Source: Neoarius graeffei (lineage: Eukaryota > Chordata > Actinopteri > Siluriformes > Ariidae). Taken from it: a stretch of 64,000 nucleotides of DNA. A program made the translations under genes and the position numbers. The notes under the pieces are model-generated. The model searched no databases and had not been told where the DNA came from. It worked only from the letters and a program-made list of their open reading frames with translations. Positions 43,101-63,215 of this stretch are shown here, piece after piece (the stretch's first letter is position 1; every line of letters starts with the position of its first letter). The DNA lies in NCBI RefSeq assembly GCF_027579695.1, contig NC_083577.1:40305198-40369197 (forward strand), read 5' to 3'.

Positions 43101-46100
43101 CTGTGCTGAGCTCTAGCTGACGTCGTCATTGGACAACGTCACTGTGACATCCACCTTCCTGATTCGCTGGCGTTGGGATCACACACACAGCGGCTCAGTC
43201 CCGAATCACTGCTTGTGCGCTTCACTCGCACGCTCTGTGAGCTGCGCAGGGCCGGAGTGCGCACCCTCCAGAGGGCACTCGCTGTTCAGGGCAGAGTGAT
43301 TTGGAGCGCAGGAGGAAGCGCTGAGCCGCACTGAGGTTTATTTACACATTTCAACTTATTTACCTCCTTCAGGCGCTTAAACTCAGTGAGAACATGAACA
43401 TCATAGCCAGGTGTGGTTATCTGCTGGAGAAGGTGTTCGCTTCCCATTCTTCCACCTGCAAGTGGTGAGTGACTTGCGCATGCCCGATATGCACTGGGAT
43501 CATGTGACGTGCTGTCTAATTAGTCATGTGATTAGCGTATCCGTGTATTGGCGTTGCTGTGTGCACGCGAATCGTTTTAAAAATGTTAATCTGATGATCC
43601 GCTGATACGGTCTAATGTAAACACCACCCAACTGAACACCACCTTGCTCTGCATCAATACCTGACCTCACTAATCCTCTTGGGGCTGAATGAGCACAAAT
43701 CCCCACAGCTACACTCCAAAATCTATTGGAAAGCCTTCCCGGAAGAGTGGAGATTATTATAACAGCAAATGAATGGGATGGGATGCTCAGAAAGGACACA
43801 CAAGTGTGATGGTCAGGATTCCACATACATTCGTGTGAAAAAGAAAGTACACCCTCTTTCAAGTCTAGGTTTTAACTGTCAGGACATAATAAAAAAAAAA
43901 AATCATCTGGTCCTTACCAGGTCTTAAAATTAGGAAAATACAACCTCAGATGACCAATAACATGACATATTCACCATGTCATTATTTATTTAACACAAAG
44001 TAAGCCAAAAATGTAGTCGCAGTGTGTGAAAAATTAAGTACACCCTTACTGCTTCCATAGAAATTATGAAAGCAATTAGCAGCTAGGTGTTGATCAAATG
44101 AATTTGATTACTTGATCATCAGCAAGTGTGACCATCTCTTAAAAAGCAGAAATTTTGCCAGTTTGCTTGTCTAGAGCACTCAGGTGTATGTTAACACAAT
44201 GCCAAGGAGGAAAGACATCAGCAATGATCTTAAAGAAGCAATTGTTGCTGCACATCAGTCTGGGAAGGGTTATAAGGCCATTTCCAAACAATTTGAAATC
44301 CATCATTCTACTGTGAAAAAGATTATTCAGAAGTGGAAAACATTCAAGACAGTTGCCAATCTTCCCAGGAGTGGACGTCCCAGCAAATTTACTCCAAGGT
44401 CAGACTGTCCAATGCTCAAGAAATTGCAAAAAACCCAAGAATTAGGACTCTACAGGCCACAGTTAGCATGTTAAATGCTAGTTCATGACCGTACAATTAG
44501 AAAAAGACTGTGCAAGTATGATTTGTTTGGAAGGGTTGCCAGAAGAAAGCCTCTTCTTTCTAAAAAGAACATGGCAGCACAGCTTAGGTTTGCAAAGATT
44601 CATCTGAACAAGTCACAAGCCTTCTGGAACAATATCCTTTGGACAGATGAGACCAAAGCGGAAATATTTGGCCATAATGCACAGTGCCATGTTTGGTGAA
44701 AACCAAACACACCTCATACAAACCATCAAGCACTGTGGTGGAGGGGTGATGATTTGGGCTTGTTTTGCAGCCACAGGACCTGGGCACCTTGCAGTCATTG
44801 AGGCTACATTTACATTAGACCGTATCTGTCTCGTTTTCTTCGCGGATGCACTGTCCGTTTACATTAAACCCCCTGGAAACGCCGGGAAACGGGAATCCGC
44901 CAGCGTCCACGTATTCAATCCAGATCGTGTCAGCTCCGGTGCTGTGTAAACATTCAGAATACGCGGATATGCTGTGCTGAGCTCTAGCTGGCGTCTCATT
45001 GGACAACGTCACTGTGACCTCCACCTTCCTGATTCGCTGGCGTTGGTCATGTGACGCGACTGCTGAAAAACGGCGCGGACTTCCGCCTTGTATCACCTTT
45101 CATTAAAGAGTATAAAAGTATGAAAATACTGCAAACACTGATGCAAATACTGCCCATTGTGTAGTTATGATTGTCTTTAGGCTTGCCATCCTTCCACTTG
45201 CAAGTAGTAAGTGATATGCGCTGGGATCACACACACAGCGGCTCAGTCCCAAATCGTGGCTTGTGCACTTCACTCGCGCGCTGTGTGAGCTGCGCAGGGC
45301 CGGAGTGCGCACCCTCCAGAGGGCACTCGCTGTTCAGGGTGGAGTGATTTGGAGCGCAGGATGCCTGCGGAGCCGAGCGTATCCGTGTATTGGCGTTGCT
45401 ATGTGCACGCGAATCGTGTATTGGTTTTGCTGTGTGCACACTAATCATTTTAAAAACGTTAATCTGATGATCCGCTGATACAGTCTAATGTAAACATGGG
45501 CTGAGTCAACCATGAACTCCTCTAGAATAATTTGGTATACAGAGGCAAATGTGAGGCCATCTGTCCAACAGCTAAAGCTTGGCCACAATTGGGTCATGCA
45601 ACAGGATAATGATCCGAAGCACATCAAAGCAAATCTACAGCAGAATGGCTGAAAAAGAAAAGAATCAAGGTGTTGGAATGGCCAAGTCAAAGTCCAGACC
45701 TCAACCCAATTGAAATGCTGTGGTGGGACCTTAAGAGAGCTGTGCATAAACAAATGCCCTCAAACATGAATGAACTGAAGCAATGTTATAAAGAGTGGGC
45801 CAAAATTCCTCTACAACGATGTGAGAGACTGATAAAATCGTACAGAAAACGATTGCTTCAAGTTATTGCTGCAAAATGTGGTTCTACAAGCTATTGAATC
45901 ATGGGGTATACTTACTTTTTCACACATGGATTCTGCATTTTCACTTAATTTTTATTAAAGAAATTATGACATGGTGGAATCTGTTGTGTGTTGCTTTACA
46001 CCTAAGGTTAGATTTGCATAATTTTAGGACCTGGTAAGGATCAGATGATTTTTTTTTTTTTTTTTTTTTTGTCATGATTAGTAAAACCATGTAACTGGAA

Positions 46101-48744
46101 GAGGGTGTACTTTTCTTTTTCACATAACTGTACTTTTTGGTCATGTAGTGCATTTTTTTTTTTTTTCAGCAAAACTTAGACATCCTAGTCCTAATATCCC
46201 TAGAGGAATCCCTTCTGTCAACTTTCAAAGGTGTTGTTCTGTATTTGCTGAGGGAAAATATTGTATTGCTTTGTCACTGCAAACAGCTGTATTGTCATTT
46301 AGCTATTAATAGCTAATAGTAAATAAGACATGTTACAGGGCTCAACATTAAGGACTGCCCGATTGCCCGGGGCAAGTGAAACATGCATTGGGGCAAGTAG
46401 GATATGTCCTTGACATGCCCAGCTGGGCAAGTTGGAAAGAGCATATATTATGAACTAGCACCACAAAAGTTAGGCTTTTTGATCTTTTTATTTCAGTTCC
46501 TAAAAGCGTCCCTCACTACGTATCCGCCATTATGTCTTGGCTGTTTTCTTAGTCTCTGTCTCGTTTACTGCTTTGCAAGTTATTTTAAATACCCCTGCTG
46601 TTGTAGTCTGGTATGCATACTGTTTGATAGACCCCTTGTGCACGACATCACGCATCACGTGATAATTACAGCTGGGGTCAGACAGACACCGTCTTTCATG
46701 CAAGCAAGGCTTAATCTGTCTTCAGTATGGTTCATTTTTGTGCTGTTTTTGCTTGTTCAAACAGAGAAATAAATAAAAGGCATTCCCGTCTCCCCACCAT
46801 CAAGAAAAATGTTAACAAATTGAAGCAAATGCTTCAAGAACAACGGGTAAATGAGTGGTTAAAGAATACGGCGAGAGGAGCTCAGCCTGAAAACTCCAGA
46901 GGAATTCACGATTGTATTTAAAATATATTTTACAAAAGCAGAAAGTCGGAAGTGAGGATGGAAGAGTTTGATTAAGAATCTCGTTTTATTTTTTTCTGTT
47001 CGCACTTGAGTTAGCTCCATGAAATTGTTTGATTTTCTTAAAGGTGAAGCCGCTTCCTTATTCGACACAGAAAACCCGGATTCAAAACAACTCTGGCATA
47101 AAAAAACTCAACAAGGAGCGACATGCTCGATGAATCCTGAAAGAAGAGAACAGATTAAGAGCAGAGAGAGCTGGAGCTTTGTTTCTGTTATCAGAGGAAC
47201 ACAGGCCTGTGCAAAATATTTATGTATCTGTTTGTTTGGGGTTTTTTTGTTTGTTTTCCCCTCCCATCATCCACCTCTAGGTTTATTTAAAAAAAAAAAA
47301 CGTGCTGTGTCATGACAGACCGGCTGCACTGATTCAGTTACAGGTTACCAGGTCTGTATAAAACACCCACAACCTACACACTAAACAATAATTTTAAACT
47401 CGAACACTATCCTGTCTGTCATGACGCAGCGCAGGTTTTTTTTTTAAACCTAGCGGTGAATGATGTAACACACAAAAAAGATATATTCTCAGAACAGTAC
47501 TGTTCAAAAGTCTTGGTGAATAGCTATCAAAAATGCATTCCTATATTTAATTAAATGAGAAATAGAATTTTGATTTTAATGAATTTGCTTTCAGCTCTCC
47601 TTTAAATCAAATTTGAGGCTTTTGATTAATTCCTCGCTCTGCACTGTAACTTTTATTCTTGTATTTTGTCTTATTCTATTTTAGATGTTTTTACTATTTT
47701 TAATTGTACTTGAATGATCATTTATAATGTGTTTCTTCCTCTGTCCATTTACCCCAACATGCTACAATATTATTGCCATTTTCACGCCACAACTTATAAA
47801 TTTGTCTTGTGCCCGTTGTCGTAAGGAACTGCACTGTATGATGGTATATATTGCTTGGTTCATGACCATCACTACTTTTCACAGTGCATTCTGGGATACT
47901 ATGAGTCCATTATATAGGGTGTAATAATTCTCACTATACATTCGGACAGCACTACAAAATGGCGAACTTGCTATATAGTCCACTATGTACAGTAGTGAGT
48001 GATTTCGGACACAACTCCGCAGTACATGTCCAGCTTGAGAGAGAGAAATAGTGTTTTTGTTTTTAACCTAAAGTAGCTTAAAAGGATTTATGCTGTGATG
48101 AAGCAGGGACTAGTGATGCCATTATACCTAAAGAGAGAGCTAGAAGGTAATGCAGGCATAAGGGTATGCTAAATAGTGTGTTCAGCTGCAGCCATGTTTT
48201 TTACTTCCCAACAGTGTTACTACTTTCACCCTTTATACTGTATGGATTACTCTATGGCTTGTCATTGGACTTTACCTTCTGATTGTCCTGGTTTCCAGGT
48301 ACTGTCTGGATGTGGAGTGTATGATGGTACAGAGATCCATGAGGCATCAGCGTGAGTATCAGGCTCCACCCAAAACCTCATGCTACTGTACCATACATGA
48401 TGTTGGTTACTCCATAAGTGAATATTTTTGCCTATGGGTTTTGGAAATGGACTTCCCACTACAATAGATTTTTGTGCCTTCATAAATCATAACCATTTCT
48501 TTAGGATATATTCACTCAGAAATATGCATATGTACAGAATCCTGGTGCATCTGAGTCGGGGTGGTGCCGAGGTCCAGATGTATGCTCCTGATGTGACTCA
48601 GATGCATGTTATAGACCACAGCAAGGGGCAGCCTTCAGAGGAGTCCAGGTAATCAACAGGGCTCGACATTTAACTTTTAAACCCACTTGCCCTGGGGGGG
48701 CAAGTGGGGGTTAATTTCCACTTGCCCCCTATTTTGCAAGTACT

Positions 48745-48776
<32 letters not shown>

Positions 48777-51700
48777 TTAGGAAAACCCATAGGATAGTTG
48801 TGAATTGCAACATAAAATGAAGATCACACACTGACTTGAAGTTTGGTTATTGATTAAGTTTGGTTATCCGTTACTTGTAACGGGCAATAATGATTTTATC
48901 CAAAATAGTTTTTCCTGCCTTAGTCAATTTATTTCCATTTCACATGCCTACAGCTCATTACTCGATAATGTAGAAATCATAAAATAGAACTCGATAACAA
49001 AGTTTGCATGAAAAAAAAAAACAATAGGGTGCCAAAACTTTTGAGCAGTACTGTGTTTGAGAATATTTATATTTCTTTTTTTTTTTTAAATATCATCCAC
49101 CTCTAGGTTTAAAAAAAAAAAACAACGCGCTGCATCATGACAGACAGGATAATGTTGGAGTTTAAAATTATTGTTTATTGTGTAGGTTGTGGGTGTTTTA
49201 TACAGACCTGGCAACCTGTAACTGTTGAGTGCAGCCGGTCTGTCATGATGCAGCGGGTTTTTTTTGTTTTTTTTTAAACCTAGAGGTGGATAATGTAACA
49301 AAAAAAATTTTATATATATTTTGCACAGGCCTGTGTTCCTCTGATAACAGAAGCAAAGCTCCAGCTCTCTCTGCTCTTAATCTGTTCTCTTCTTTCAGGA
49401 TTTATCACGCATGCCACTCCTTGTTGTGTTTTTTTTTTTTTTTTTTTTTTTTTAAATGCCCAAGTTGTTTCGAAACCAATCTGGGTTTTCTGTGTCGAAT
49501 AAGGAAGCTGCTTCACCTTTTAAGAAAGTCAGACACTTTCATGAAGGCGCTAACTCAAATGCGAGCAGAAAAAAATAAAACGAGATTTTTAATCAAACTC
49601 TTCCATCCTCACTTCCGACTTTCTGCTTTTGTAAAATGCATTTTAAATACAATCGTGAATTTCTCTGGAATTTTCAGGCTGAGCTCCTCTCTTTGTATTC
49701 TTTAACCACTCATTTACCCGTTGTTCTTGAAGCATTTGTTTCTATTTGTTGACATTTTTCTTGATAGCGGGCAGACGGTAATGCCTTTTTATCTATTTCT
49801 CTCTCTGTTTGATCAAGCAGAAACGGCGCAAAAATGAACCATATTGAAGACAGATTAAGCCTTGCTTGCATGAAAGATGGTGTCTGTCTGACCCCGGCTG
49901 TAATTATCACGTGATGCGTGATGTCATTGCACAAGAGGTCTATAAACAGTACGCGTACCATACTACAACAGCGGGGGTATATAAAATAACTTGCAAAGCA
50001 GTAAATTAAACTGAGACTAAGAAACAGGGTTCCCGCGGGTCCTTAAAAAGTCTTAAATACAACTTTCGGTTTTCAAGGCCTTAAAACGTCTTAAATTGTT
50101 TGGAATGACTGGAATTTTCGAAAGGGAGGTATTAAATTTTAATGTTGGACCGAACGAGTGAAATGTCTCCATCCGGTTTGGGTATTTTTTTTTTACCGTA
50201 ATTTTAAAAGTGACCAGCGTACCTTTTGGGGGCAGCATTGGTTCTGTGTGTTCTGTGCATTTCGTAGATCAAGAACTAACGTTAGGAGGCTACTGGAGAA
50301 AGTGTGGTGTGGTGCGGTGTGGTGGTTGTGAAGAGTGAGAGATACGCAGGTAGCTTATGCGGGTGCTAGAAAGCGTTGATAATTATGGGAAGATGTCTGT
50401 TTAACGACAAGTGGTTGGGGGATGACAAATACCCCCACAATAAGGAGAAGAATCGTTTGCGATAAAAAGCGCTGGATCGCACAAATGTGTTTAAAGAGGG
50501 TACCGCAGCGCTGGGGACACAGCGGACTGGGAAACTGGCTTTTCACGGACACGAGGCGCGCGCGTGTGTTAGAGGTCAAGCGCTCCGGAGTGAAATGCAG
50601 GGGGGTTCGCGCATGCGCACAAGAGCCAGGTGGAAAATGGGGCTTATAGGAAATACTACTAATAGTAATGATTAGCATCTTTTTTTTTTTTTACATAATT
50701 AACATTGTTTATTGTACTAAGTTTAATATAAATATATAAACAACCTTTATTTCAAAACTCAATTACAAAGAACTCCAGAAAATACAATAATTCTAAATAT
50801 AGTACAATATAAATAATTTGTACAAAAAGTTTTTGTTTTATTACTTATCATCTACAACAGTGTTTTTAATATAATAATAAGAATAATATTAACAACCACT
50901 AATAATTAGTAGTAATAGTAATTATTATTGATTATTAATCATTACTACTTATGAATTAGTGATTAATAAGTACTAGGGATTATTAAATGTTATAAAATTA
51001 AGTTATTAAAAATTATTACAAATTATTAAAAAGTAGTAATTGGTAGAATACAAACAAATACTCATGGATTATAGATAATTTTTTTTTAAATAGTAAACAT
51101 TGATATAAAATAACTGTACTACTACTACTACTAATAATAATAATAATAATAATAATAAACAATAATACTACTAGTAATACTTGTTAGTTATTATTATCAG
51201 TTCAATTGTTATATCAATGTTCACTATTAAAAACAAATTATCTATAATCCATGAATAGTTTGCATCACTACTACTACTAATAATTACTATTTTTTTAATA
51301 ATAATTTTAACTAATCTTATGACTCAATTTTATAGCATTTTTATAATCACTACTTATTATTTATTAGTATAATTTAGTAGTTGATAATAATTACTACTTA
51401 TTATTAAATTACATTTTGATAATCACTGCTTATTAATTAAGTAGTAATTAATAATACTGAATTATAATTGCTACTCTAATATAGCTAATAAGTAGTGATT
51501 TAAAATGTTATAAAATTGAGTTAATTTTTTTAAATTATTAAAAAGTAGTTATTATTATTATTATTATTATTATTAGTAGTAGTAGTAGTAGTAGTAATAC
51601 AAACAATTATTCATGGATTATAGATAATAATTAATGATTATTTTTGAATAATGAACATTGATATAACAATTGCACTGATAATTAGTTTAGTTATTAGAAC

Positions 51701-52974
51701 ACATTGATTAATATTGATAATGGTTATGAAAGGTGACAGTAGTTGTTCTGTGTTTAATGTAACGCTCTGATGATTGTATGACTGCATAAACAGGTTTATG
51801 CTGTTACCTGCTATAATGCAGAAGATACTCGAGAACTTCCTCAGCCAGCTGTATACTGTACGACACTCAGACTGATTTTGCTGTCGGACACAAAATCACA
51901 CATCATCAAAGATAATCTTTGGGGATTGAAATAATGCTGGCTAAGGTTGTTCAGGTGGTTCTACTTGCTGTTTATTGTTTTCGTTTTTGAAATGATTCAT
52001 GGTGTTTTCTCCAGTAAACACCAGTCTTCTCCTTGCTGCTACAGTAGTTCTGCAGGCCCAGAACACATGACTTTGCTTCAGCTGTTTGCATGTCTAACAG
52101 TTGCCATTGATGCACCCTGTTGTTCACCAATTGTGTGCATTCTTTTTAAAGTTAGTAAAAAAAACTATTGCAGAAAACAGTTTTAAGTTGTCGTATTTAT
52201 CATTTTCTTTGCCATGGTACAGTCTTAATTTTTCCATTTAGAGGTCTTGAAAAGGTCTTAAAAGTCTTTAAATTTGTACTTGAAAAATGTGCAGATATCC
52301 TGAAGAAAACAGCCAAGACAATAATGGTGGATACGTAGTGAGGGAAGCTTTTAGGAACTGAAATAAAAGATCAAAAAGCCTAACTTTTTTGTGGTGCTAG
52401 TTTGTAATCTATGCTCATTCCAGCTTGCCCGGTCGGGCACGTTGGGGACATATCCCACTTGCCCCAATGTATGTTTCACTTGCCCCGGGCAATCGGGCAG
52501 TCCTTAATGTTGAGCCCTGATGAACAGGGAGGAGATTCTACATCATGACTGCCTTTGGTCTTCTCTGTAACTCTGCTTCTTATATTATTCATAATCCTGA
52601 ATGTATGTTGTTCAGGAACGTCCTAGCTGAGTCGGCTCGCATCGCCAGGGGTAACATCACTGACCTGGTTAAGCTGAGTGCCACTAGCCATGATGCAGTC
52701 ATCTTTCCAGGAGGCTTTGGAGCTGCAAAAAATCTGTAAGGGTTACTGTGATGTTTCTGTTTGGGGGTGAAGTAATGATAAAAAGGTAGCATGTTTGAAT
52801 TGGTAGACATGTATGTACTGGCAATTTCCTTCACATGTTTCCAAAGCTGCATAATTATGACTTTCAGGTCAACATTTGCTGTCGATGGAAGTAACTGTAC
52901 TGTGAGTAAAGAGGTGGAACGTGTCTTAAAGGACTTCCATAAAGCAGGCAAGCCGATTGGGTAAGTACTCCGTC

Positions 52975-53008
<34 letters not shown>

Positions 53009-55134
53009 AATACCATAAATACAGTGTACTAGTGCATCTCAAACAAATTAGAATATCATGAAAGTTTTTTTTTTGTTTTTTTGGTAAAGTGAAACATTTC
53101 AAGCCTTTTAAATTTATTTATTTTTTTAATTTTGATTTTTATGGCTTATAGCTCATGAAATTCAGAAATCCAGTTTCTCAAATTATTAGAATATTTACTA
53201 AGATCAATCAAAAAAGGATTTACAATACAGAAATGTCCAACTTCTGAAAAGTATGTTCATTTATACACTCAATACTTGGTTGGAGCTCCTTTACAACAAA
53301 TTACTGCATCAATGTGGCATGGCATGGAGGCGATCAGCCTGTGGCACTGCTGTGTTACTGAAGCCCAGGTTGCTTTGATAGCAGCCTTCAGCTCATCTGT
53401 AATTTTGGGTCGGGTGTTTCTCATCATCTTCCTTTTGACAATACCCTATAGATTGGGGTTCAGGTCCGGTGAGTTGGCTGGCTAGTCAAGCACAGTAATA
53501 TCATCATCAGCAAACCATTTGGTAGTAGTTTTGGCACTGTGGGCAGGTGCCAAGTCCTGCTGGAAAAGGAAATCGGCATCTCCATCAAGCTTGTCAGCAG
53601 ATGGAAGCATGAAGTGCTCTAAAATCTCCTGGTAGACGGCTGCATTGACTTTGGACTTGATAAACCACAGTGGACCAACACCAACAGATGACCTGGCACT
53701 CCAAATCATCACAGACTGCAGAAACTTCACGCTGGACTTCAAACACCTTGGATTCTGTGCCTCTGGACTCTTCCTCCAGACTCTAGGACCTTGATTTCCA
53801 AAGGAAATGCAAAATTTACTTTCATCTGGAAAAAAAGGACTTTGGGCCACTGAACAACAGTCCAGTTCTTTCTCTCCTTAGCCCAGGTAAGACACTCCTG
53901 ATGTTGTCTCTGGTTCAGGAGTGGCTTGATATGAGGAATGTGACAGTTGTAGCCCCTTTCCTGAAGATGTCTGTGCGTGGTGGCTCTTGATGCACTGACA
54001 CCAGCCTCGATCCACTCCTTGTGAAGCTCTCCAAAGGTCTTGAATCGACGTTTATTGATAATCCTCTCAAGGCCACGGTCAGCTGTGTTGCTTCTGCACC
54101 TTTTCCAACCAGCCTTTTCACCAATGACCTTCTGTGGCTCCTTGTGGAGGGTGTCTATGTTCATCTCCTGGAGAACTGTCAAGTCTGCAGTCTTCCCCAT
54201 GATTGTAGTTGTGTGTACTGAACTAGACCGAGAGATACATGGCATTTATACTGTTTTATTCAGACTTGAAATGAAATATTCTAATATTTTGAGATGTGTG
54301 TTGTTTGGGGTTTTTTTGTGCTGTAGGCCATAGTTATCAAATTTTTAAAACTGAAGAATGCTTGAAACATTTTAGCTTATATGTAATGAGTCTAGCACAT
54401 TTTCACTTTCTTAAATAACTGGTGGAAAATATTGAACTGTTTCATGATATTCTAACTGTTTGAGATGCACTAGTAGTTGCCAGGGCTTACTTTTTTTAGA
54501 AAGCTGAACACAATCATTTTGGAGCTGTTTTACTATCATTTCCCCTCGGCTGGTTTATTTTTTCCCCTGCCCTGGAATGATATTTTCTTTGTTTGTTTTT
54601 GCCCTGCTAAACCACCTTTTATTAGGCAGTTACAGTTGTTTCGTTGTGGTGTGCAGTGTTGATGCTGTTCTCTCATGGTTTCCAGGTTGTGCTGTATCTC
54701 TCCGGTGCTGGCAGCGAAGGTGCTCCCCGGTGTGGAAGTGACCGTGGGCCATGAGGAAGAGGAGGGGGGCAAGTGGCCCTACGCTGGCACTGCTCAGGCC
54801 ATCACTGCACTCGGGGCCAAACATAAAGTCAAAGATGTCACCATATCCTTCTCAGCACATGTCCGATGTTGAATTAATTTTTAATGCCTTTACATCTCTT
54901 CTCCCCTCCTGTCACCAGCATTATTTACTAAGAAATCTGATTAAGGTAATATTTCACATCTGGTAAACACTTGTCCGATTTTAGCCTTAACCTTTTGATC
55001 TCCACGAGGTTCATGTTGACCTAAAGAATAAGGTAGTGACCTCTCCTGCATTCATGTGTGACACACAGTTGCACCTGATCTTTGACGGGATTGGTTCGAT
55101 GGTCAGAGACGTCTTGAAGCTGACTGGGAAATAA
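34176..55134 (+). CDS. gatd3: GATD3/ES1, mitochondrial DJ-1/PfpI-family protein (7 exons)
   Basis: GATD3 (ES1 protein, formerly C21orf33) is a mitochondrial member of the class I glutamine amidotransferase-like/DJ-1 fold; its enzymatic role is poorly defined. Exons: 34176-34313, 48299-48351, 48538-48648, 52616-52735, 52868-52960, 54686-54842, 55006-55134; 801 bases, 266 codons plus TAA, the usual length. Exon 1 encodes a basic presequence ([20 protein letters not shown]) suited to mitochondrial import. The fold begins [20 protein letters not shown], then [25 protein letters not shown], the nucleophile elbow [13 protein letters not shown] and [13 protein letters not shown]. The first five introns are GT-AG with phases that agree. 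Intron 6 is AT-AC with U12 signals. Exon 3 has a second, stronger acceptor giving a start at 48505 and 11 extra codons. Intron 1 is 14 kb of nested transposons. Confidence 0.95.
34651..35772. mobile_element. Inserted repeat rich in CCCGCTCCCGCC motifs
   Basis: Both outer parts hold repeats of cccgctcccgcccgc (left) or gcgggactcccgcggg (right), so the ends are roughly inverted GC-rich arrays. It carries the 98-bp hairpin at 35169-35380. Probably a hAT-like non-autonomous element; exact tips are unclear. Confidence 0.5.
35169..35380. repeat. 98-bp near-perfect inverted repeat with 16-bp loop
   Basis: Arm 35169-35266 is the reverse complement of 35283-35380 with a single mismatch found by eye (tgttaCac against tgttaGac). 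The loop is 35267-35282. Arms begin TTAGTCTACAACTTTAG. Confidence 0.93.
36063..36411 (-). repeat. SINE-B: tRNA-headed SINE carrying a 5S rRNA segment
   Basis: Read in reverse, the head GGCCTAGTGG-TAGC with GATCGGGAGATTGTGAG is tRNA-like. The body matches 40019-40299. Near its 3' end is a 5S rRNA-like segment (36089-36148) missing from that other copy. Flanks share atttttagacca. Confidence 0.8.
36089..36148 (-). repeat. 5S rRNA-derived segment (3' half) within SINE-B
   Basis: The plus strand reads acctggtattcctagtcag and ccactcaagtactaaccagg, the complement of the 3' half of vertebrate 5S rRNA. It is not a 5S gene: the 5' half is missing. Confidence 0.85.
36994..38557. mobile_element. Tc1-like MITE (CACTACCGTTC ends), interrupted
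   Basis: Ends CACTACCGTTCAAAAGTTTG and its near complement at 38557, flanked by TA. About 530 bp without the element inserted at 37415-38448. A truncated relative lies at 42692-42780. Confidence 0.9.
37415..38448 (+). mobile_element. DNA transposon fragment with AGACCCCTTTCAC ends, nested in the MITE
   Basis: Ends AGACCCCTTTCACATGACGT and its imperfect complement at 38448. The junction has gta on both sides; a TA or 3-bp target duplication cannot be told apart. A plus-strand peptide from 37531 ([19 protein letters not shown], then [17 protein letters not shown]) resembles the start of large fish transposon proteins that I associate, without certainty, with ISL2EU/YqaJ-type elements. The rest of that gene is missing. 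Confidence 0.65.
38579..38660 (+). repeat. Truncated Tc1 end (TACACTATATGGCC)
   Basis: The sequence tacactatatggccaaaag is the terminal repeat of a common teleost Tc1 family. It breaks off at about 38660, before the TTAA-bounded THAP element. Confidence 0.7.
38909..39204 (-). repeat. SINE-A, reverse, truncated
   Basis: Flanked by agaccaaagtc on both sides (38898-38908, 39205-39215). The tRNA-like head is missing. Confidence 0.88.
39960..40550 (-). pseudogene. THAP-domain protein pseudogene, split by SINE-B
   Basis: On the minus strand from about 40548 one frame reads [20 protein letters not shown] and later [16 protein letters not shown] and GYKPILKEG after a frame change, i.e. the C2CH zinc ligands of a THAP domain. 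The SINE at 40019-40299 falls inside the gene; past it the frame continues GAVPTIKGK, the AVPT-type end of the domain. A further minus-strand piece (39613-39830) may be the next coding part. Not functional. Confidence 0.7.
40019..40299 (+). repeat. SINE-B: second tRNA-headed SINE family
   Basis: Head GCGAGTTGGCCTAGTGG-TAGC with B-box-like GAGTTCTACTC. Perfect 14-bp target duplication accctctttcaata (40005-40018, 40300-40313). Lacks the 5S segment of the copy at 36063. Confidence 0.9.
40714..41807 (+). repeat. SINE-A interrupted by Harbinger-like MITE copy 2
   Basis: Target duplication gatttattgt (40704-40713, 41808-41817). The MITE 40893-41606 splits the body. Confidence 0.9.
40893..41606. 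mobile_element. PIF/Harbinger-like MITE, copy 2
   Basis: Ends GGCCAAGTTTACATTAGACC and its near complement, flanked by taa (40890-40892, 41607-41609), the 3-bp target size of PIF/Harbinger elements. Confidence 0.85.
41818..42690. other. Intron 1 DNA with possible retroelement tail
   Basis: No supportable gene. The stretch around 42411-42460 (acagacagccttcctttattagtatag) resembles the 3' end of RTE-like LINE/SINE copies. Confidence 0.35.
42692..42780 (+). repeat. Truncated Tc1-like MITE end
   Basis: Reads tacactaccgttcaaaag as at 36992 and stops at about 42780, where another Tc1 family begins abruptly. Confidence 0.75.
42922..43628. mobile_element. PIF/Harbinger-like MITE, copy 3
   Basis: Ends GGTGGTGTTTACATTAGACC and its complement. 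More diverged inside than copies 2 and 4. The target duplication is not clean. Confidence 0.82.
44202..45896 (+). pseudogene. Tc1 transposase pseudogene, split by a MITE
   Basis: Starts [20 protein letters not shown] with the helix-turn-helix block, then [39 protein letters not shown] stop follows MLKKLQ...QLAC (near 44473) and another after CHVW (44699). The MITE cuts it at 44812-45501; afterwards [20 protein letters not shown] continues to 45896. Dead copy. Confidence 0.9.
44812..45501. mobile_element. PIF/Harbinger-like MITE, copy 4
   Basis: Ends GGCTACATTTACATTAGACC and the complement ending ATGGGC; flanked by tga (44809-44811, 45502-45504). Confidence 0.87.
46336..47510 (+). mobile_element. 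hAT-like element copy A with nested THAP element
   Basis: Outer tip CAGGGCTCAACATTAAGGAC. An inner element begins at 46629 (AGACCCCTTGTGCACGACAT), and from 46727 it reads a THAP N-terminus ([19 protein letters not shown]). A small repeat bounded by ATCATCCACCTCTAGG lies at 47268-47466. The same order is found inverted at 49090-52519. The inner end of copy A is approximate and seems truncated. Confidence 0.65.
46727..46921 (+). pseudogene. THAP domain N-terminal fragment
   Basis: [15 protein letters not shown] followed by [19 protein letters not shown] and EWLKNTARG shows the first zinc ligands (C-x4-C) and helix of a THAP domain. It stops before the C-x2-H half. The inverted copy lies at about 49660-49840. 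Confidence 0.6.
48746..48778. repeat. (TTTC)n microsatellite
   Basis: About eight TTTC units, close to the 5' end of GATD3 intron 3. Confidence 0.93.
50025..52302 (+). mobile_element. hAT-like element nested in copy B
   Basis: Left end CAGGGTTCCCGCGGGTCC followed by TTAAAAAGTCTTAAA; right end, in reverse, CAGGATATCTGCACATTTTT with the same AAGTCTTTAAA-type subterminal motifs. Flanks share aagaaa. A plus-strand start at 50385 ([17 protein letters not shown]) resembles a hAT N-terminus but breaks after about 25 codons. The rest is AT-rich filler. Confidence 0.65.
50690..51760. repeat. AT-rich region with repeated inverted units and (TAA/TAC)n
   Basis: The unit catggattatagataat occurs near 51065 and 51615 and in reverse near 51240; ttgatataa/ttatatcaa pairs flank TAC and TAA runs (51117-51160, 51550-51597). 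No coding capacity. Confidence 0.6.
52977..53007. repeat. (TTA)n microsatellite
   Basis: About ten ATT units starting 17 bases into GATD3 intron 5. Confidence 0.92.
53029..54473 (-). mobile_element. Tc1-like element in GATD3 intron 5
   Basis: Ends CTAGTGCATCTCAAACAAAT and the complement at 54473, flanked by TA (53027-53028, 54474-54475). Contains a minus-strand transposase remnant. Confidence 0.9.
53482..54200 (-). pseudogene. Tc1-like transposase pseudogene
   Basis: From 54200 the minus strand reads [20 protein letters not shown], later [20 protein letters not shown], then shifts frame near 53840 into [30 protein letters not shown] and [16 protein letters not shown]. These are the DNA-binding and DD34E catalytic blocks. 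The frameshift removes the first catalytic block from the N-terminal frame. Confidence 0.88.
54843..55005 (+). other. U12-type AT-AC intron of GATD3 (intron 6)
   Basis: The intron starts ATATCCTTCT and ends TCCAC. A U12 branch-site match CCTTAAC lies at 54985-54991, about 15 bases before the end. No GT-AG choice keeps the frame as well: the join gives [15 protein letters not shown]. Confidence 0.93.
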
Positions 55135-55490
55135 GTGACACTGTTTCCTTCAACGAGCTGCATGTTCACTGCACTTACACACACACAAACAGTCACATAG
55201 CGAGTTCTACATGCATTTGATCCTTTTGTGAAATAAGTGAAAGCTTTGTGAGCATTTTGATTCTGGATGTCAGTAAACCACTTTAGGTTGGGAAACTGCA
55301 ACTGATGAGCCTTAGTTCACTCCTAAACAGAGCCCCAGTACTCAAGTGATTAAAATGACAGATATTAGCCACCAAAAGCCCATCTCTGCAAGGCGTTGTT
55401 TCTTCTAAGTGACCACTAGATGGCGTAGTGTCACAGCCAGACTGGCACTGAGCAAGCCACTGCTAGAACAAGAGTAAAACTGCATTTTTG

Positions 55491-55496
55491 AATAAA
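55491..55496 (+). terminator. GATD3 poly(A) signal AATAAA
   Basis: Canonical AATAAA 357 bases after the GATD3 stop codon, followed by a T-rich stretch. Confidence 0.7.
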
Positions 55497-55620
55497 GAAA
55501 TGTTTAATTTCAGGAGTTTTTTTTATCTCATTTGGTTGTGTTTAAATATGCAATTAAAACAGACTTTTGTCAAATTATGAATTGTTATTGTAGAATCTGA
55601 TTTTTTTTTTAATGGTCTTT

Positions 55621-55919
55621 GCTTTATCTGTAAGCTGGAGCCTGTCCCAGCTGAACATGGGTGAGAGGCAGGGTATACCCTGGACAAGTCACCAGCTCAT
55701 TGCAGGGCTGACACATTCAAAAACGACCATTCACGGTCAATCTAGAGCCACCGATTAACCTACGGTACATATCTTTTGGATTGTGGGAGGAAACCCATGC
55801 GGACACGGGGCGAACGTGCAAACTCCACACACAAAGACCCTCGTCGGCCACTGGGTTCGAACCCAGAACCTTCTTGCTGTGAGGCAACAGTGCTAACCAC
55901 TACACCACCATGCCGCCTA
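55621..55919 (-). repeat. Old SINE-A copy, reverse
   Basis: A diverged reverse copy flanked by aatggtcttt (55611-55620, 55920-55929). Confidence 0.88.
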
Positions 55920-55929
55920 AATGGTCTTT

Positions 55930-57700
55930 TAAGATAAAATAAACTTTATTCATCCCTTGGTGAGGAACTGTACATATTCCAGCAGTTCACAGATAGAACA
56001 GGGTCAGGAATAGACAGTAACGAAAAAATAGAGTGCAATAAAAATATAAAGTAAATTAAAAAAAAAGGGGAGGAAAGCACAGGCCATGTATGTAGTGTAC
56101 ACAACAACGTATGGAAGGAACTTTTAAATAAGAGTAGTACTTCACCTGAAGTAGCAATATTGCACTAATAAAATACTGAAATAGAAATATTGCACTAGGT
56201 AGTGAATGTTATTGCACAGCATAATATAACTAACGAAGATGGAATATGTGAGTAAATTTAATTCACCTTTAACATTGCCATTATGTATCTGAGGAAAAAA
56301 GATTGAGGGGGGAAAAAAACATCCTGGATTTCTGTGTAATTTACACAGTCTTGCACTGTGTGTTCTAAGTGAGCCATGTCAAAAGACACAGCAAGAGCAA
56401 ATATAGTTCATATGGTAGCTCAGGAAAAGATCCGAGATTGTAGCAAATGTAATACGTTATATACTAACTCTATACATTTACATGTACATTACTGTTGGTG
56501 ATGCCTTTTAACTGGGCTTCTTCCTTCGGAGACTCCCAAGATAGCCAGTTAAAGACGGAGATGGATAGAGAGTGAATTTTTAAAGTTCAGTGGCCTAACA
56601 ACTCCTAAATAAAAACTAATTTACATCTGGTCATTTATTTTCAGTGTGCCAATTGGACGTGTGAAGGTGTGAAAAGAAAAGCAGTGAGGCGAACTTAAAA
56701 AAGGGAAGAAGTAGAGACTGATGTGGGCGGGTTTGAGGTAACAGGATTAGTTCTGCAGATCAACACCAGTTCCGGTCATCATATGGCATGTTGCAAGAAA
56801 CACACACCCCAAAGCGATGTGGAGTCCACACACACACACACACACACACTCATTTCCTGGTTATTCGTCCATATCTTATTAGAGCATGCTTTGTAGGCTC
56901 ACAGCTGCATGCCCTGTAATCCCTAACAAAACTTTTACACATGCATTGTTTCGCTAAAACAATGAATTAAAACCTCTATAGTACAATAAATTCTGATGCT
57001 ACTGTATAGGTTGTTACTATTAACATAGTTTATATACATGTAGCAGCAACGAACCTTATTTAAATACATCAAACCTGTGCAAAAACAATTTCTGGTGTTC
57101 CTGGGTCATTTCACATAAAAGTTGCCACTCCATCATGGAGTCTGGATTAAATATCAATTTCTTCATTCATTTCAGCTGGATGTTTGAAGATCTTACTTCA
57201 TCTCTGTGCTGTTTTGTTCATTCTCCCTCCTGCGGGGTGATCTGGTCTCCCAGAGAGCTGCGATGCCTTTCTTTCCGTCACTTTTTCTGCTTAAGGGTCA
57301 GGCAGATGCACTCTTCCTGCCTGTTACTTCACACTGCAAGGGAGACCTGCGCTCGGCCTGGGCTGGTTATTTCTCCCGTTCCCAGGCAAGAGTGTGCTTT
57401 GATGGTCTGCCCTTTTTACTGCGTCGCTTCTTCTATATATCCACACTCTTTCCACCGTCATGCAGGGGGCCTGAGCAAATAAGACCACAAGTTTTTCCCA
57501 ACTTGTTTGGACAAAACGAGAGGATTTAGGGCCTACTGACACTCTCACAGGGACAAGTGCTAAGTGTTTGTGTGCCAAGCTGACACAGCAAACACAAACA
57601 CCTTAGCCATCCTCACTCAACTACTGGCTGCTTGCTTTCTCTCAGCAGTGTACACCACCTGCCTTTTGACAGGCTTTTTTTTTCTCCCTCTCTTCTAAAC
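55930..57700. other. Intergenic DNA downstream of GATD3, no gene seen
   Basis: Begins with a retroelement-like tail (aaactttattcatccct). A (CA)n tract lies at 56828-56848. The plus-strand ORFs near 57135-57530 have no recognisable features. Confidence 0.4.
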
Positions 57701-57714
57701 TTGCTTTCCTCTCT

Positions 57715-58012
57715 GCATTTAACCCATCTGAAGCAGTGAACACACACACATCCAGAGCAGTGGGCAGCTATGCTAACAGCGCCCGGGGAGCAGTTGGGAG
57801 TTAGGTGCCTCGCTCAAGGGCACCTCAGCCCAAGGCCGTCCCATATTAACCTAACCGCATGTCTTTGAACTGTGGGGGAAACCGGAGCACCCGGAGGAAA
57901 CCCATGCAGATACGGGGAGAGCATGCAAACTCCACACAGAAAGGCCCTCGCCAGCTGCTGGGTTCGCACCCAGAACCTTCTTGCTGTGAGGCGACTGTGC
58001 CGTGTCGCCCAA
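57715..58012 (-). repeat. Composite SINE variant, reverse, uninterrupted
   Basis: Runs CATTTAACCCATCTGAAGC, then CTCAAGGGCACCTCAG, then CCTAACCGCATGTC to GAACCTTCTTGCTGTG. It shows the original order of the copy broken up at 34508-36986. Confidence 0.85.
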
Positions 58013-58236
58013 ATAGTGTGTGTTTGGAGCGTTTGCCCAAGATGAATTGTGTGTTAGTGGAGTGAGAGATTGGATGCACTAGCAGGAGTGTGAATAGGCT
58101 AAGGTCTGATTACATTAATGTGAGAGGACCAGTCAATCAGGGGCCAACCCGGGGCCTCGGACCCCACAAACCTCTTGGCATCCTGATCAGCGGATTAGTC
58201 AGCACACTGCTCTGGGTCAAGAGCATGCCAGTTGCA

Positions 58237-58238
58237 CA

Positions 58239-58282
<44 letters not shown>
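58237..58282. repeat. (TC)n microsatellite
   Basis: About 22 uninterrupted TC units. Confidence 0.95.
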
Positions 58283-58285
<3 letters not shown>

Positions 58286-58299
58286 GCACTTCTCAACCT

Positions 58300-60525
58300 C
58301 GTACATTTGTGCAGAAGTGGCCTGTGACATGCTGCTCTGTGGATTAGGCCCTGTGTGAAAGCTGACATTCTTCATTTGTATTCTGATTGGTTTATGCTGT
58401 TAAGTGTCTGAGGACCATTTTTCTCATGACATCATGTGCTTTGCAAATTTATCTGCCTACTGAACCATTTTAGGTCAACTTGTACATGAGAATTCTGTTT
58501 TTATTTGTATTTATTTTTAAGATTAATGAATTAAAATGGCCTTACTTGATTGTGGGTTTGGATTTGTATTATTGAGCTCAAGGCTAGATTAATACTAACA
58601 CACTGAAATCGCAATGATCACCTGAGAGAACAAAGCGTAATTCTTTTTTTATATGATGCTCAAACAAATGAAGGAACAAAGGAAAAATGCAGATTATAAT
58701 TTTCATGAGGTGGAGCATAGATGATGCTGGTTTTATTTCACAGTGTAAGTCACTTTGCAGAAAGAAGTGCACTTTGCTATCCAGTCCACTACACAATCAG
58801 CAGCTGGTCAGTGGGTTTTGGTTGAAAGTATCGAACCCCGGAACTGAATGGGTGAGAGGGGAGGGGTGGGGGTGTTGATATACCCAGGGAAGTGTGTCCT
58901 GTCTGCTAGTGTATCCCTGCTCTGACCCCTGGCCACCCCTCCCATGTGCCTCAATAGTGGGACGTTGTGTTGCTCTCAGCATGATGTCCCAGCATCCTCT
59001 GCATGTGATGGTGGGAGGTGCACAGTGAGGGGCCTTTGGAGTGAAGAAAGCAGGAGAGGGGGAATTAGCAGCTAAAATAGATGCTCCAATCTCCATATGC
59101 ATGCTGGTGACAAGTGTTATACAGAAAAACCCGGGGCCAATACGTGCGCAAGGTGGCCCAATGCAGTGCGGCACTGAGGGGGGTTTGGGAAGCAGAGCCT
59201 TTGGGGGAGTGGGTGGGGTGGGGGGTCTACAATATTGGACTAATTCACGAAAGAGACTCACTATCAAAGAGAAAGACACATGATAATTAGCCAGGGCTGA
59301 GAAGGAAAAAAGGGGGGAAAGAAAGACGCAAGAAGAATGGAATAAAAGAAAGAGAGGAACAGACTTGGGTGATTTCGACGTGTAAATGGTGTGTTGATGC
59401 ATTGATTAGCATATGGTTGTTTGTGCAGCTTATTCATAGGGCAAGCTGAATGCGTCCACTGTGTGGATGTGACTTTCTCTTCAATACTACTTTTTCAGTC
59501 TAATGCACCCCTTCTCATACATCACTTTTTTATTCATTTGTGTTGGCCAGTCGCTGTCGCCTTGTTCTTCCTGGCGTTTAATATTCAAACAGCTGAAATA
59601 TTATTGAGGCCCATGTAACAGACAGAATACAGGATTTCACCCTTTTAAAAACATTTTGATAAAGCATGAATGCATTTTCTATTTCTTACATATAATGTTA
59701 TATTGATGTTTTTTAAGCACTTAAAATAAAAAGGGTGATTTGGGCAGCAATAAGACTGATTACAGACTGACAAGCCAGAGACTTCAGACTTTACTGAGTA
59801 AAAACGATGTTCATGTTGAAACAATAAGAAAGAAATTGTGTCAGCTAATCCTGTAACCTGTTATCTAATTTGGCTTTGTAAAAACAGCACCAGTTTTGGG
59901 GCGATACATGGCATCCTCGACATTCAACACCTTTTTAATTCCTTTTTACAGTTTTTAAACTCCAGTCATTAACAAGGAGTGACTTTTTAAGTGTTATACC
60001 TGTCTTCCATTATTGACAAAACGGCATATTTAAGTGTTTTATTATGTACCTTTAATTCCTGTCATTTCCTTTTTGTGTTCTTGGACTCCAGTTTTGGACT
60101 GGAAATGAGCAGGGCGGCAGACCCAGCGTGGTGCCTCTCCTCTTTTGTGTTTGTGTTTCCTCATGCCAGCTTTCTGCTGTCACATTAGTGCATGTCAACC
60201 TCAAAGACACTCCTAGACAAGCTCACACACTCAGATAGGCTGTTTAAGCTACGTGGATATCTGGTGAAAGGAAGCAGTGGACACTCATTTTGCTTGTTTT
60301 GCTGTTGAATTAATGAATAATCAGCCATAAAGAATGATTGAACCGTGCACAATTATTGACTCCTTGGTTACTTTTTTTCTAAATGACTCATGGTCTGAGA
60401 TGCCAAGTTTGATTCCAGTTTGTCTGTATGTTTGTGTGAGGGCTTAGGGGCCTGAGGTGGTGTTTATCTGATAGTATTTATGTTTTGCTGGTCTCCAAGA
60501 AGAAAACTTTTTTTTTTTAATGTAT
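58300..60525. other. Low-repeat intergenic DNA, no gene recognised
   Basis: Few transposons are visible here. The longest frame is minus-strand 58797-59402, proline- and serine-rich at low complexity, without a domain or splice context. It may be unique or conserved non-coding DNA. Confidence 0.35.
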
Positions 60526-60540
60526 ACTGTTTTTAGAGGC

Positions 60541-60900
60541 GGCACGGTGGTGTAGTGGTTAGCACTGTCGCCTCACAGCAAGAAGGTCCGGCGAGGGCCT
60601 TTCTGTGCGGAGTTTGCATGTTCTCCCCATGTCCGCATGGGTTTCCTCCGGGTGCTCCGGTTTCCCCCACAGTCCAAAGACATGCAGGTTAGGTTAACTG
60701 GTGACTCTAAATTGACTGTAGGTGTGAATGTGAGTGTGAATGGTTGTCTGTGTCTATGTGTCAGCCCTGTGATGACCTGGCGACTTGTCCAGGGTGTACC
60801 CCGCCTTTCGCCCGTAGTCAGCTGGGATAGGCTCCAGCTTGCCTGCAACCCTGTAGAACAGGATAAAGCGGCTACAGATAATGAGATGAGATGAGATGAG
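60541..60900 (+). repeat. SINE-A, full length, with 15-bp target duplication
   Basis: Flanked by perfect copies of actgtttttagaggc (60526-60540, 60901-60915). About 20 bases of the usual head are deleted after AAGGTCCGG. Confidence 0.93.
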
Positions 60901-60943
60901 ACTGTTTTTAGAGGCAAAACATTTCATTTTGGTTACTGAGTTA

Positions 60944-61495
60944 AGGCCTCTGCATGCTCTTGTGACAAGGCTTTCGCAGATAGCTTTTCGCAGACAGTTG
61001 TAATTTATTGTTGAGCGGGGACTATAGGCGTGCGCGATGTTATTCACCGGCACAACGCAAGGGGGTGCGAAGTCGCTATGAGTAGTTGGTGGGTGTGGTT
61101 AGTGGGTGTGGTTAGTGGAGTGTTTATCCTCCGGTTACTTATAATGACTAGAACTTTTTTTTTTTATAATGACTAGAACTGGAGTCGTATAGATGTACGT
61201 ACTTCCTCAATCAACCGCTCTTCATGCTGCTCCATCTTCGCTCATGTTTTTAAAAATGCCGGTCGTGAAAACAAAACAAACCGGGAAAGTAGGGAAGCGG
61301 AAGTGCGTGTACAGCGGATGTAGAGTGGACCAATCAGAGCCCTCTTGTCTGCGACGCTGTCTGCGAGGCTTCTGCGGTGGTCACAATTTTTGGGAGGTGC
61401 GCGCAGAGCGTCTGCGAAGGTGGGGGGGCTACGCAGACACTATCTGCAACACCATCTGCGAGGACTGGGTTGTCAGCATAAATTGGCCTTTAGGC
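60944..61495. repeat. Possible hAT-like MITE with subterminal TCTGCGA motifs
   Basis: TCGCAGA occurs twice near the left side (about 60974-61000) and TCTGCGA several times near the right (61345-61470), i.e. inverted arrays. Outer ends read AAGGCCTCTGCAT and near-complementary GGCCTTTAGG. Tips and target duplication are uncertain. Confidence 0.4.
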
Positions 61496-61593
61496 TTGCA
61501 TAGGGTTAGATTTTCATGTCAGGATAATCTCTGGTCCTCACTTTTTCAAAGGGCTGTTTGAGGATTAAGACTAAATTCTAACCCGAGCCTTAA

Positions 61594-62280
61594 AGTGTAT
61601 ATCCTGGGCCAATTTCGTGTTTTTTTATATGAAAGTATGTCCCTTTACACACTCATCCAGAAGGGTAATTTTGCACAAGGCCATCTGTCTACAGCAGAAA
61701 AAAAATAACAAAACGCCTCTGGAAAAATCCCAAGGGAGTCTGGAGCCAGATTCGTGACGTCACCTGCGGATCCGCCAGCAGGCTGCGAGAGCTTGCACGG
61801 TTTCAGTGCACAGCCTGTGTAGACCAAGTTTAGCAGCTAGCGATTTTGCATTGAAATATGGAATTGTCACCTGAGCGCGATGTTACTTCACCTTTGGATG
61901 AAGAATATAATGAGATGTCAGAATTGGGGCTTCATCTGTTTGGATTTGATGATGATTCAAGTAGTGAAGACGATGGAGACAACACCGGGGATGTAAATAA
62001 CACGGTCGTTTTCTCATAAACAAACCAGCGCTGACGTAGGATTCAGAAGGAGACGTCCCACACGTGACGTCACGAAAATCAATGTTTGCCGGGAAATCCA
62101 AATGCCAAGTTTTTTCAGAGGCGGACCAATTCACCTCAAATGACTTGATTTCAACTGAATTTTTCTGGTATTGCGCAAGGTAAAAAATTGCGCAAAATGT
62201 GACAGATATTTGACCAAAGTTTAATATAAAATAGGAGAATTACATTGATCTTGCTCCTGAATTTACCCGTGATATGCACT
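61594..62280 (+). mobile_element. TTAA-target DNA transposon (687 bp, Kolobok-like)
   Basis: Ends AGTGTATATCCTGGG and, in reverse, AGTGCATATCACGGG; TTAA on both sides (61590-61593, 62281-62284). It encodes a short acidic peptide start at 61858. Confidence 0.82.
61858..62019 (+). pseudogene. Short acidic ORF in the TTAA element
   Basis: Starts at ATG 61858: MELSPERDVTSPLDEEYNEM, then FGFDDDSSSEDDGDN and a stop at 62017. The acidic leader resembles first exons of larger transposon proteins, but nothing else of such a gene is left. Confidence 0.4.
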
Positions 62281-62284
62281 TTAA

Positions 62285-62990
62285 AACTAGGTTTAGGTTA
62301 CTGTTAGGGTAAGGGTTGGGATTAAGCATTTAGTTGTGATAGTTAGGGTAAGGGGCTAGAGAATACATTATGTTAATGAGTCCCCACAAATATAGAAGTA
62401 CAAGAATGTATGTATGTGTGTGAGTGAGTGATCTGTTTAGCTAGCAGAATGAATGGTCAGGCTGTTTCAGGTCAGAGTTCATAACCATTTTGGCCACAGA
62501 AAGACAGCTCTCCATCTGGCAGGGACTTTGCCCATGAAGGTCAGAGGCAAGGTTCAGGGGTTGAGATGTGTAATGTAGCAGCAGTGGATGGGTTGGATAT
62601 GCACACAGGTGTTGGTGTGTGTCTGCATTTTTGTGTACCAAACAGTGTCTAAAAATGCTATTGTATATCAGAGATAATCACTATAGCCTAGTGCTAGTAT
62701 GCCTTTATTTATCGATCCTTTAAGCCGTCTCTCCTTCACTTTTTTCTGAATTACAGTCCAGTATTTCTGGTGGCAGAGCTGTAGTCTTGAACTGAATACT
62801 CCAATCACACATCACAATACCTGTCAAGCTATTTGACCATTCACAAAACCCACTGCACTGAGCTCAACCCCTCTCCATCGCTCTCTCCTTCTCCCACTCT
62901 CTCTGTCAACATTAATGGAGGGATGCAAATAATATTTAATATTTTGTAGAAGAAAATAAACTCCTGAACTAATTATTGGTCTTCTTTTTT
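62285..62990. other. Intergenic DNA, no feature recognised
   Basis: No ORF, repeat end or tRNA-like box could be supported. Confidence 0.4.
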
Positions 62991-63002
62991 ACTGAAAAAA
63001 TA

Positions 63003-63004
<2 letters not shown>

Positions 63005-63054
<50 letters not shown>

Positions 63055-63055
63055 G
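63005..63055. repeat. (TC)n microsatellite
   Basis: About 24 TC units with one TTTC interruption. Confidence 0.94.
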
Positions 63056-63060
63056 TGCCT

Positions 63061-63215
63061 GTCACAGCAGCACAATGTCGGTGCATTAGTATGCTAATGA
63101 GGCGGGGGGTGACAGGTGGCCCGATAGACAGCTCAATTAAGCTGCTCGTTAAAGGCCAAGCTAACGAAGCAGCCTGCACCGCAAAGCCGCAACAAACAAT
63201 GTGACTGTGCTGCCT
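63061..63215. promoter_or_regulatory. Candidate conserved non-coding element (TAAT-rich)
   Basis: Non-repetitive stretch with clustered homeodomain/POU-like cores: GCATTAGTATGCTAATGAG and AGCTCAATTAAGCTGC. No ORF. Regulatory role is inference only. Confidence 0.3.

Follow-up and report, generated by a model that had tools for sequence, protein, structure and literature searches.

U12-type introns have AT-AC or GT-AG ends, and their removal depends on the U11, U12, U4atac and U6atac snRNPs. Their 5' splice site follows the consensus RTATCCTT, and their branch site the consensus TTCCTTAAC, with two upstream pyrimidines. The sections of PMC3584512 that treat these signals describe the 5' splice site as highly conserved, report a second conserved element, the branch site, close to the 3' end, and give 11-13 nt as the optimum distance between branch site and acceptor. 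AT-AC introns, which an earlier note on this DNA had called rare, do not prove to be that rare among minor introns, for Table 2 of PMC7367187 puts them at 22% of the U12-type introns in zebrafish.

Here, we describe an intron of the GATD3 gene in a 64,000-nucleotide stretch of the Neoarius graeffei genome (the window; all positions below are window positions). Intron 6 of GATD3, at 54843-55005, is almost certainly a true AT-AC intron of the U12 (minor-spliceosome) type, inherited from early bony vertebrates, and as such it is an ordinary conserved feature. GT335, an old name of GATD3, may have stood in some lists of AT-AC introns from the 1990s. Searches of the literature for GATD3, C21orf33, GT335 or catfish together with minor introns found, among the papers listed, none on GATD3 intron 6; GATD3 does not occur in the main texts of PMC9501576, PMC10639083 and PMC6717393, nor C21orf33 in those of PMC9501576 and PMC6717393.

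The GATD3 gene

GATD3 (ES1/ElbB-like) is a mitochondrial enzyme gene, and its seven coding exons all lie on the forward strand of the window. Exon 1 (34176-34313) begins with ATG, encodes a mitochondrial-leader-like N terminus ending in ARVAV, and is followed directly by GTGAGT; it was located by tblastn with the first 60 residues of the Clarias protein P0001 (E 8e-13), and its end was read in the sequence. It is followed by exon 2 (48299-48351; 17 residues and a split codon), exon 3 (48538-48648), exon 4 (52616-52735), exon 5 (52868-52960), exon 6 (54686-54842; C-terminal residues KHKVKDVT) and exon 7 (55006-55134; EVHVDLKNK...KLTGK and the stop codon). Both the naming of the gene as GATD3 and the numbering of the final exon as the seventh in the earlier note are thus upheld. 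The predicted protein matches the family through the ElbB equivalog model NF008747 of NCBIfam (262.6 bits against a curated cut-off of 180). The Pfam DJ-1/PfpI model (PF01965) is a near miss with the 220-residue protein of exons 2-7, at 24.3 bits against a gathering score of 26.6; many homologues carry PF01965 as a precomputed domain. Rfam gave no match within the window at the gathering threshold, and a first scan of genome contigs for relatives found none. A scan of 55000-55600 for bacterial-type promoters and terminators carries no information for a vertebrate.

Signals and reading frame of intron 6

Intron 6 stands out because the other five GATD3 introns are all GT-AG. By direct reading, exon 6 ends at 54842 (AAA GAT GTC ACC), the intron begins at 54843 with ATATCCTTCT and ends at 55005 with GATCTCCAC, and exon 7 starts at 55006 with GAG GTT CAT GTT GAC (EVHVD), which leaves an intron of 163 nt in phase 0 on the forward strand. 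The terminal dinucleotides, AT at 54843-54844 and AC at 55004-55005 (in an acceptor CCAC), are allowed for U12-type introns. The 5' splice site (54843-54850) is an exact match to the U12-type ATATCCTT; together with the next base, it would be read through as I-S-F. The branch-site core CCTTAAC (54985-54991) is perfect, but the full TTCCTTAAC is not present, as the two preceding bases are AG and not TT. From the branch adenosine to the last intron base there are 16 nt if the adenosine is at 54989, or 15 nt if it is at 54990, a short distance that slightly exceeds the 11-13 nt optimum given in the relevant part of PMC3584512. The boundaries proposed in the earlier note are right to the base, and its donor, branch site some 15 bases before the intron end, and AC acceptor are all found at exact coordinates. 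An AG also lies in frame 3 bases beyond the real AC (55007-55008), and it could serve as an occasional acceptor.

We infer that intron 6 is removed in the animal by the minor spliceosome. By the general snRNA steps of minor splicing, ATATCCTT would be bound first by U11 and later by U6atac, while the pairing of U12 snRNA to CCTTAAC would leave the adenosine at 54989 or 54990 bulged out; the first AC 3' of the branch site, at 55005, would then be taken as the acceptor, so that KDVT is followed directly by EVHV, in phase 0.

How specific are these motifs? Given an AT at the exon end, the probability of an exact ATCCTT together with an exact CCTTAAC is about 1.7e-7, a post hoc figure that assumes 12 allowed places for CCTTAAC and a first-order background taken from window positions 44001-64000. 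A loose scan for donor, branch site and acceptor over both strands of the 64 kb, with introns of up to about 3 kb, yielded three other donor-branch pairs, and exact CCTTAAC occurs in the window once on the forward strand and twice on the reverse strand. The pairing of motifs would not by itself be decisive. The assignment to the U12-type AT-AC class, as first proposed, is settled because the exact signals coincide with the exon ends and with the reading frame; a chance match was rejected on the exact fit of frame and protein junction.

Junction tests and rival explanations

When in-frame GT-AG, GC-AG and AT-AC junctions were enumerated, only one of 25 restored the conserved protein with no change of length, namely AT-AC at 54843-55005, in keeping with the prior claim that this intron is needed to hold the frame between KDVT and EVHVDL. 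Across the AT-AC junction, the alignment is free of gaps for all 71 bacterial relatives and for all 21 proteins encoded on short, transcript-like contigs (the "lgn" proteins, whose transcript origin is presumed), and neither set has a gap within 10 residues of the junction (0/71 and 0/21). PDB 1vhq, which we take to be the E. coli sequence, is likewise aligned across the exon 6/7 junction with no gap. Against seven scored alternatives, the AT-AC model did at least as well as each: among the bacterial proteins it was better than one GT-AG model in 69 of 71, with two ties, and better than the other six in all 71, and it was better than all seven in every one of the 21 short-contig proteins. U2-type GT-AG and GC-AG junctions were rejected on their length changes and lower scores.

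The most direct rival is a GT-AG (U2-type) intron with its donor GT at 54837 or 54861 and an acceptor AG ending at 55008, in which the AT-AC motif would have arisen by chance. Both of these junctions are in frame, and the second yields ISFSAH|VHVDL, which resembles the public Silurus asotus model P0004 (ISFSAH|AHVD). They nevertheless change the protein length, by -3 residues (54837) or +5 (54861), and it is the former that the AT-AC junction beats in 69 of the 71 bacterial proteins (the other two being ties) and the latter in all 71, with both losing in all 21 short-contig proteins; GAT|GTCACC and CAT|GTCCGA are, judged by eye, also poor U2 donors. This reading is extremely unlikely. An AT-AG intron of the U12 type (54843-55008), which would use the AG 3 bases past the AC at the cost of a glutamate, has a next to negligible probability. 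Direct reading shows that junction to be in frame, and its AG ends 18 nt from a branch adenosine at 54990; however, AT-AG combinations are disfavoured according to the pertinent part of PMC3584512, and the glutamate is kept (EAHVD, EVHVD and similar) in most gap-free homologue rows, among them P0001, from a catfish, and the closely related P0002.

Mis-spliced gene models in relatives

Public gene predictions mis-splice this AT-AC intron in several species of fish, and also in birds, mammals and a lizard. Translated U12 signals are found in 20 of the 120 best-listed homologues (distinct entries), which include entries from catfish, characin, bony-tongue and elopomorph fishes as well as from birds and mammals. 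Donor read-through, in which exon 6 is followed by ISF or ISS, is seen in 14, and read-through of branch site and acceptor, with SLT... before EAHVD, in 7. In the bird form, FSLTPFY-like residues from the translated branch site stand ahead of exon 7. Two additional searches gave the entries P0121, P0129, P0130 and P0131 and added the lizard. P0102 carries ISF and was counted; P0058 was rejected, since its ISS lies in the upstream AISSLGAKHC and its junction is intact; and P0029, P0049, P0055, P0068, P0115 and P0120 (6 of 25 gapped rows), altered in other ways, were not counted. The earlier expectation that standard gene finders would miss or mis-splice this intron is thus realised in relatives, but most of the best-listed 120 show no splicing error, including the nearest named relative, Clarias, and, once the short-contig rows are set aside, the signature is absent from 79 of the remaining 99.

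Might the ISF-type forms be real isoforms made by the major spliceosome, with the intron itself of U12 type? They recur, and intron 6 contains an in-frame decoy GT at 54861-54862, 18 nt inside the intron, which pairs with the AG at 55007-55008 to give the false junction described above. Read-through is nonetheless seen in 0 of the 21 short-contig rows versus 20 of the 99 others (Fisher p 0.022, indicative only, as the rows are related), and both insert length and join vary between species, as expected if software picks a nearby GT and AG. We consider such isoforms very unlikely, and annotation error the better account. GATD3 intron 6 is a clean example of a minor intron that is wrong in a fair share of public models, with errors visible by sight as ISF following exon 6 or FSLTPFY preceding EAHVD. 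Correction would repair GATD3 entries across several vertebrate groups, and a proteome search for translated U12 signals might reveal other mis-spliced minor introns.

Age and origin of the intron

To our knowledge, AT-AC minor introns are almost never gained. The signals translated in the erroneous models of relatives suggest, indirectly, that this one dates to early bony vertebrates; the dating stops there because no invertebrate occurs among the listed homologues with readable names. GATD3 is reportedly of bacterial descent (PMC8935817), and the 71 bacterial relatives are continuous at the site, so the minor intron should postdate the arrival of the gene in eukaryotes. A late entry is unlikely; if true, it would be among very few datable gains of an AT-AC minor intron. 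Dating outside vertebrates could test the mode of minor-intron gain, given the reported origin of the gene.

Comparison with known systems

Bacterial ElbB, or sigma cross-reacting protein 27A (PDB 1vhq, 1oy1, 5lir), belongs to the same protein family as GATD3, and 1oy1 as well as 1vhq is gap-free over the exon 6/7 junction, but the bacterial genes have no intron. Intron 6 resembles the vertebrate U12-type AT-AC introns in its ATATCCTT donor, CCTTAAC core, short branch-acceptor distance and AC end, and in being a single minor intron among major ones. It differs in a slightly long branch-acceptor distance (15-16 nt) and in its phase 0, against which U12-type introns are biased according to PMC7367187. 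Other vertebrate GATD3 genes have an intron at the same position after the exon 6 residues, and their read-through models point to ATATCCTT or a similar donor in catfish, characin, bony-tongues, elopomorph, birds, lizard and mammals. In bird GATD3 the branch site is apparently the fuller TTTTCCTTAAC, at some 11 nt from the junction, as suggested at the protein level by FSLTPFY|E.

Structure of GATD3 and its last intron

The window contains a complete-looking GATD3 gene on its plus strand. A tblastn search with the N-terminal part of the Clarias protein P0001 located exon 1 (34176-34313), whose end was read in the sequence. Exons 2 (48299-48351), 3 (48538-48648), 4 (52616-52735), 5 (52868-52960), 6 (54686-54842) and 7 (55006-55134) join into a single open frame that finishes with KLTGK and a stop. 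Clarias provides the best named homologue, at 94% identity across the 220-residue query (among the best 120 of 7607 homologues at E <= 1e-40, from a database clustered at 90% identity). Intron 1 starts with GTGAGT and ends with TTTCCAG, introns 2-5 are GT-AG, and intron 6 (54843-55005), read directly, starts with ATATCCTT and ends with CCAC.

Several mobile elements were seen along the way. Intron 1 (34314-48298) is about 14 kb long and contains, by eye, transposase-like open frames, so that gene models may lose exon 1 and with it the mitochondrial leader. Intron 5, just before exon 6, holds a Tc1/mariner-type transposase remnant in two minus-strand open frames, 53742-54245 (Pfam HTH_Tnp_Tc3_2, 41.5 bits) and 53485-53877, which by reading looks like the same transposase. 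Another Tc1-like transposase frame lies at 14573-15226 on the plus strand (HTH_Tnp_Tc3_2, 35 bits). A retrotransposon frame at 4067-5620 on the minus strand carries domains for reverse transcriptase, RNase H and the zinc-binding region of integrase; its integrase core (rve) match is under the cut-off. Further long open frames lie on either side of it in that orientation.

Signals of the minor class

How well does intron 6 fit the "textbook" U12-type AT-AC label that the earlier note gave it? The donor and the branch core CCTTAAC are exact, the acceptor is AC, and the possible branch adenosines are 15-16 nt from the final base of the intron, close to the 15 or so bases proposed. The label is nonetheless slightly generous, in that the branch site falls short of the full consensus letters and its distance is a little long. 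The optimal distance is 11-13 nt, and either adenosine can be used, according to passages of PMC3584512, which define the class by its 5' splice site and branch site, name AT-AC and GT-AG as the main subtypes, and describe AT-AG ends as disfavoured.

The window has one exact CCTTAAC on its plus strand and two on its minus strand. For the exact motifs to occur together at the exon end, the probability is about 1.7e-7, a post hoc figure on a first-order background. A loose scan of both strands for donor, branch site and matching end returned four donor-branch pairs, intron 6 included, so the motifs alone are no proof of a U12-type intron. Chance pairs around 30469-31993 sit at mirror positions on the two strands (30578 with 31863, 31972 with 30469), which suggests a mobile element whose inverted repeats happen to contain ATATCCTT.

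In the minor spliceosome, the donor and branch site are recognised jointly by the U11 and U12 snRNPs, U11 is then replaced by U6atac, and the first AC past the branch site is chosen as acceptor. Intron 6 would probably be removed by these steps. If it were retained, translation would read on into the intron and the C terminus would be lost.

Alternative junctions

For donors within 54780-54984, acceptors ending within 54900-55029 and introns of at least 61 nt, we enumerated the GT-AG, GC-AG and AT-AC junctions. Twenty-five are in frame without a stop, and 8 of these differ from the expected protein length by at most 8 residues. The AT-AC junction 54843-55005 is the sole one of the 25 with zero length change, which bears out the claim that it keeps the frame.

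We scored the eight near-length models on 71 bacterial relatives (from 80 loci fetched; the other 9 yielded no protein by the pattern used) and 21 proteins with "lgn" as sole source, whose longest contigs measure 0.99-2.85 kb. Since such 1-3 kb contigs encode a whole protein whose coding exons 2-7 span 6.8 kb here, their size is most simply explained if they are assembled transcripts. The AT-AC model was top or tied against every alternative in both sets, with just two ties, both among the 71 bacterial proteins and with a 172-nt GT-AG model. The 10 residues on either side of the junction were free of gaps in every protein of both sets (0/71 and 0/21 gapped).

A decoy for gene finders is at hand: a GT at 54861 with an AG ending at 55008 gives ISFSAH|VHVDL, the same form as the Silurus entry, and tblastn of the Clarias protein (P0001) on the window aligns EAHV to the intronic SAHV.

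Mis-spliced gene models in relatives

The expectation that automatic annotation would mis-splice this intron is realised in some entries of relatives. Among the best 120 of the 7607 homologues, alignment over the junction is gap-free in 95 and gapped in 25. In 14 of the 120, the translated donor (VTISF, VTISS, VAISF or VIISF) directly follows exon-6 sequence: Tachysurus (P0003), Silurus (P0004), Pygocentrus (P0025), Aldrovandia (P0050), Scleropages (P0057), Arapaima (P0076), five birds (P0074, P0080, P0097, P0104, P0113), P0102, Thomomys (P0111) and Aotus (P0117). I-S-F translates ATA TCC TTY; the ISS forms of P0025 and P0050 would match a donor like ATATCCTC. In seven bird entries (P0060, P0092, P0096, P0108, P0109, P0112, P0113), SLT and a few residues stand ahead of EAHVD instead, where FSLTPFY corresponds to TTT TCC TTA ACN CCN TTY TAY, a minor branch site followed by an AC-compatible end. 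As P0113 is in both groups, 20 of the best 120 carry translated U12 signals. Searches directed at mis-spliced entries brought in P0121 (Rhynchocyon), P0129 (Origma), P0131 (Rhynchonycteris) and P0130 (Phrynosoma), the last with both signals.

Read-through is present in 0 of 21 short-contig rows versus 20 of 99 others (Fisher p 0.022, indicative only as the rows are related). The remaining 79 of the 99, Clarias among them, have no such signature, and 6 of these have other junction gaps. The pattern supports an intron that bony vertebrates share, with one kind of donor among them, and mis-splicing by annotation software that is frequent though not universal.

Relation to known introns and relatives

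AT-AC introns make up 22% of U12-type introns in zebrafish and 26% in human (PMC7367187, Table 2), and sections of PMC2831892 describe U12 introns as strongly conserved across vertebrates and gains as almost unknown. A literature search under GATD3 names, covering partly the top-ranked results, gave no link to minor introns. The main text of the minor-intron papers examined does not name GATD3. Since lists of genes are given in supplements and databases, the human counterpart of this intron may well be on record already. The interest of intron 6 is thus modest, and lies in the annotation pattern and in the way a gene of reported bacterial origin came to hold a minor intron.

The protein is of the ElbB type in the DJ-1 superfamily (NCBIfam 262.6 bits), with a Pfam DJ-1_PfpI score just under the cut-off. 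The mammalian form is reported in PMC8935817 to be a mitochondrial deglycase that originated in bacteria, and the zebrafish form in PMC4772128 to be a factor that enlarges mitochondria in cones. Phycisphaerales ranked best among the 80 loci retained. Close GATD3/ElbB relatives at 49-54% identity (loci L008, L018, L020, L023, L038 and L058) come from Azospirillum, Roseospira, Novispirillum, Telmatospirillum and a Rhodospirillales MAG, all of them alphaproteobacteria. Against these stands the account in portions of PMC8935817, which places the closest homologues of the family outside the alphaproteobacteria.
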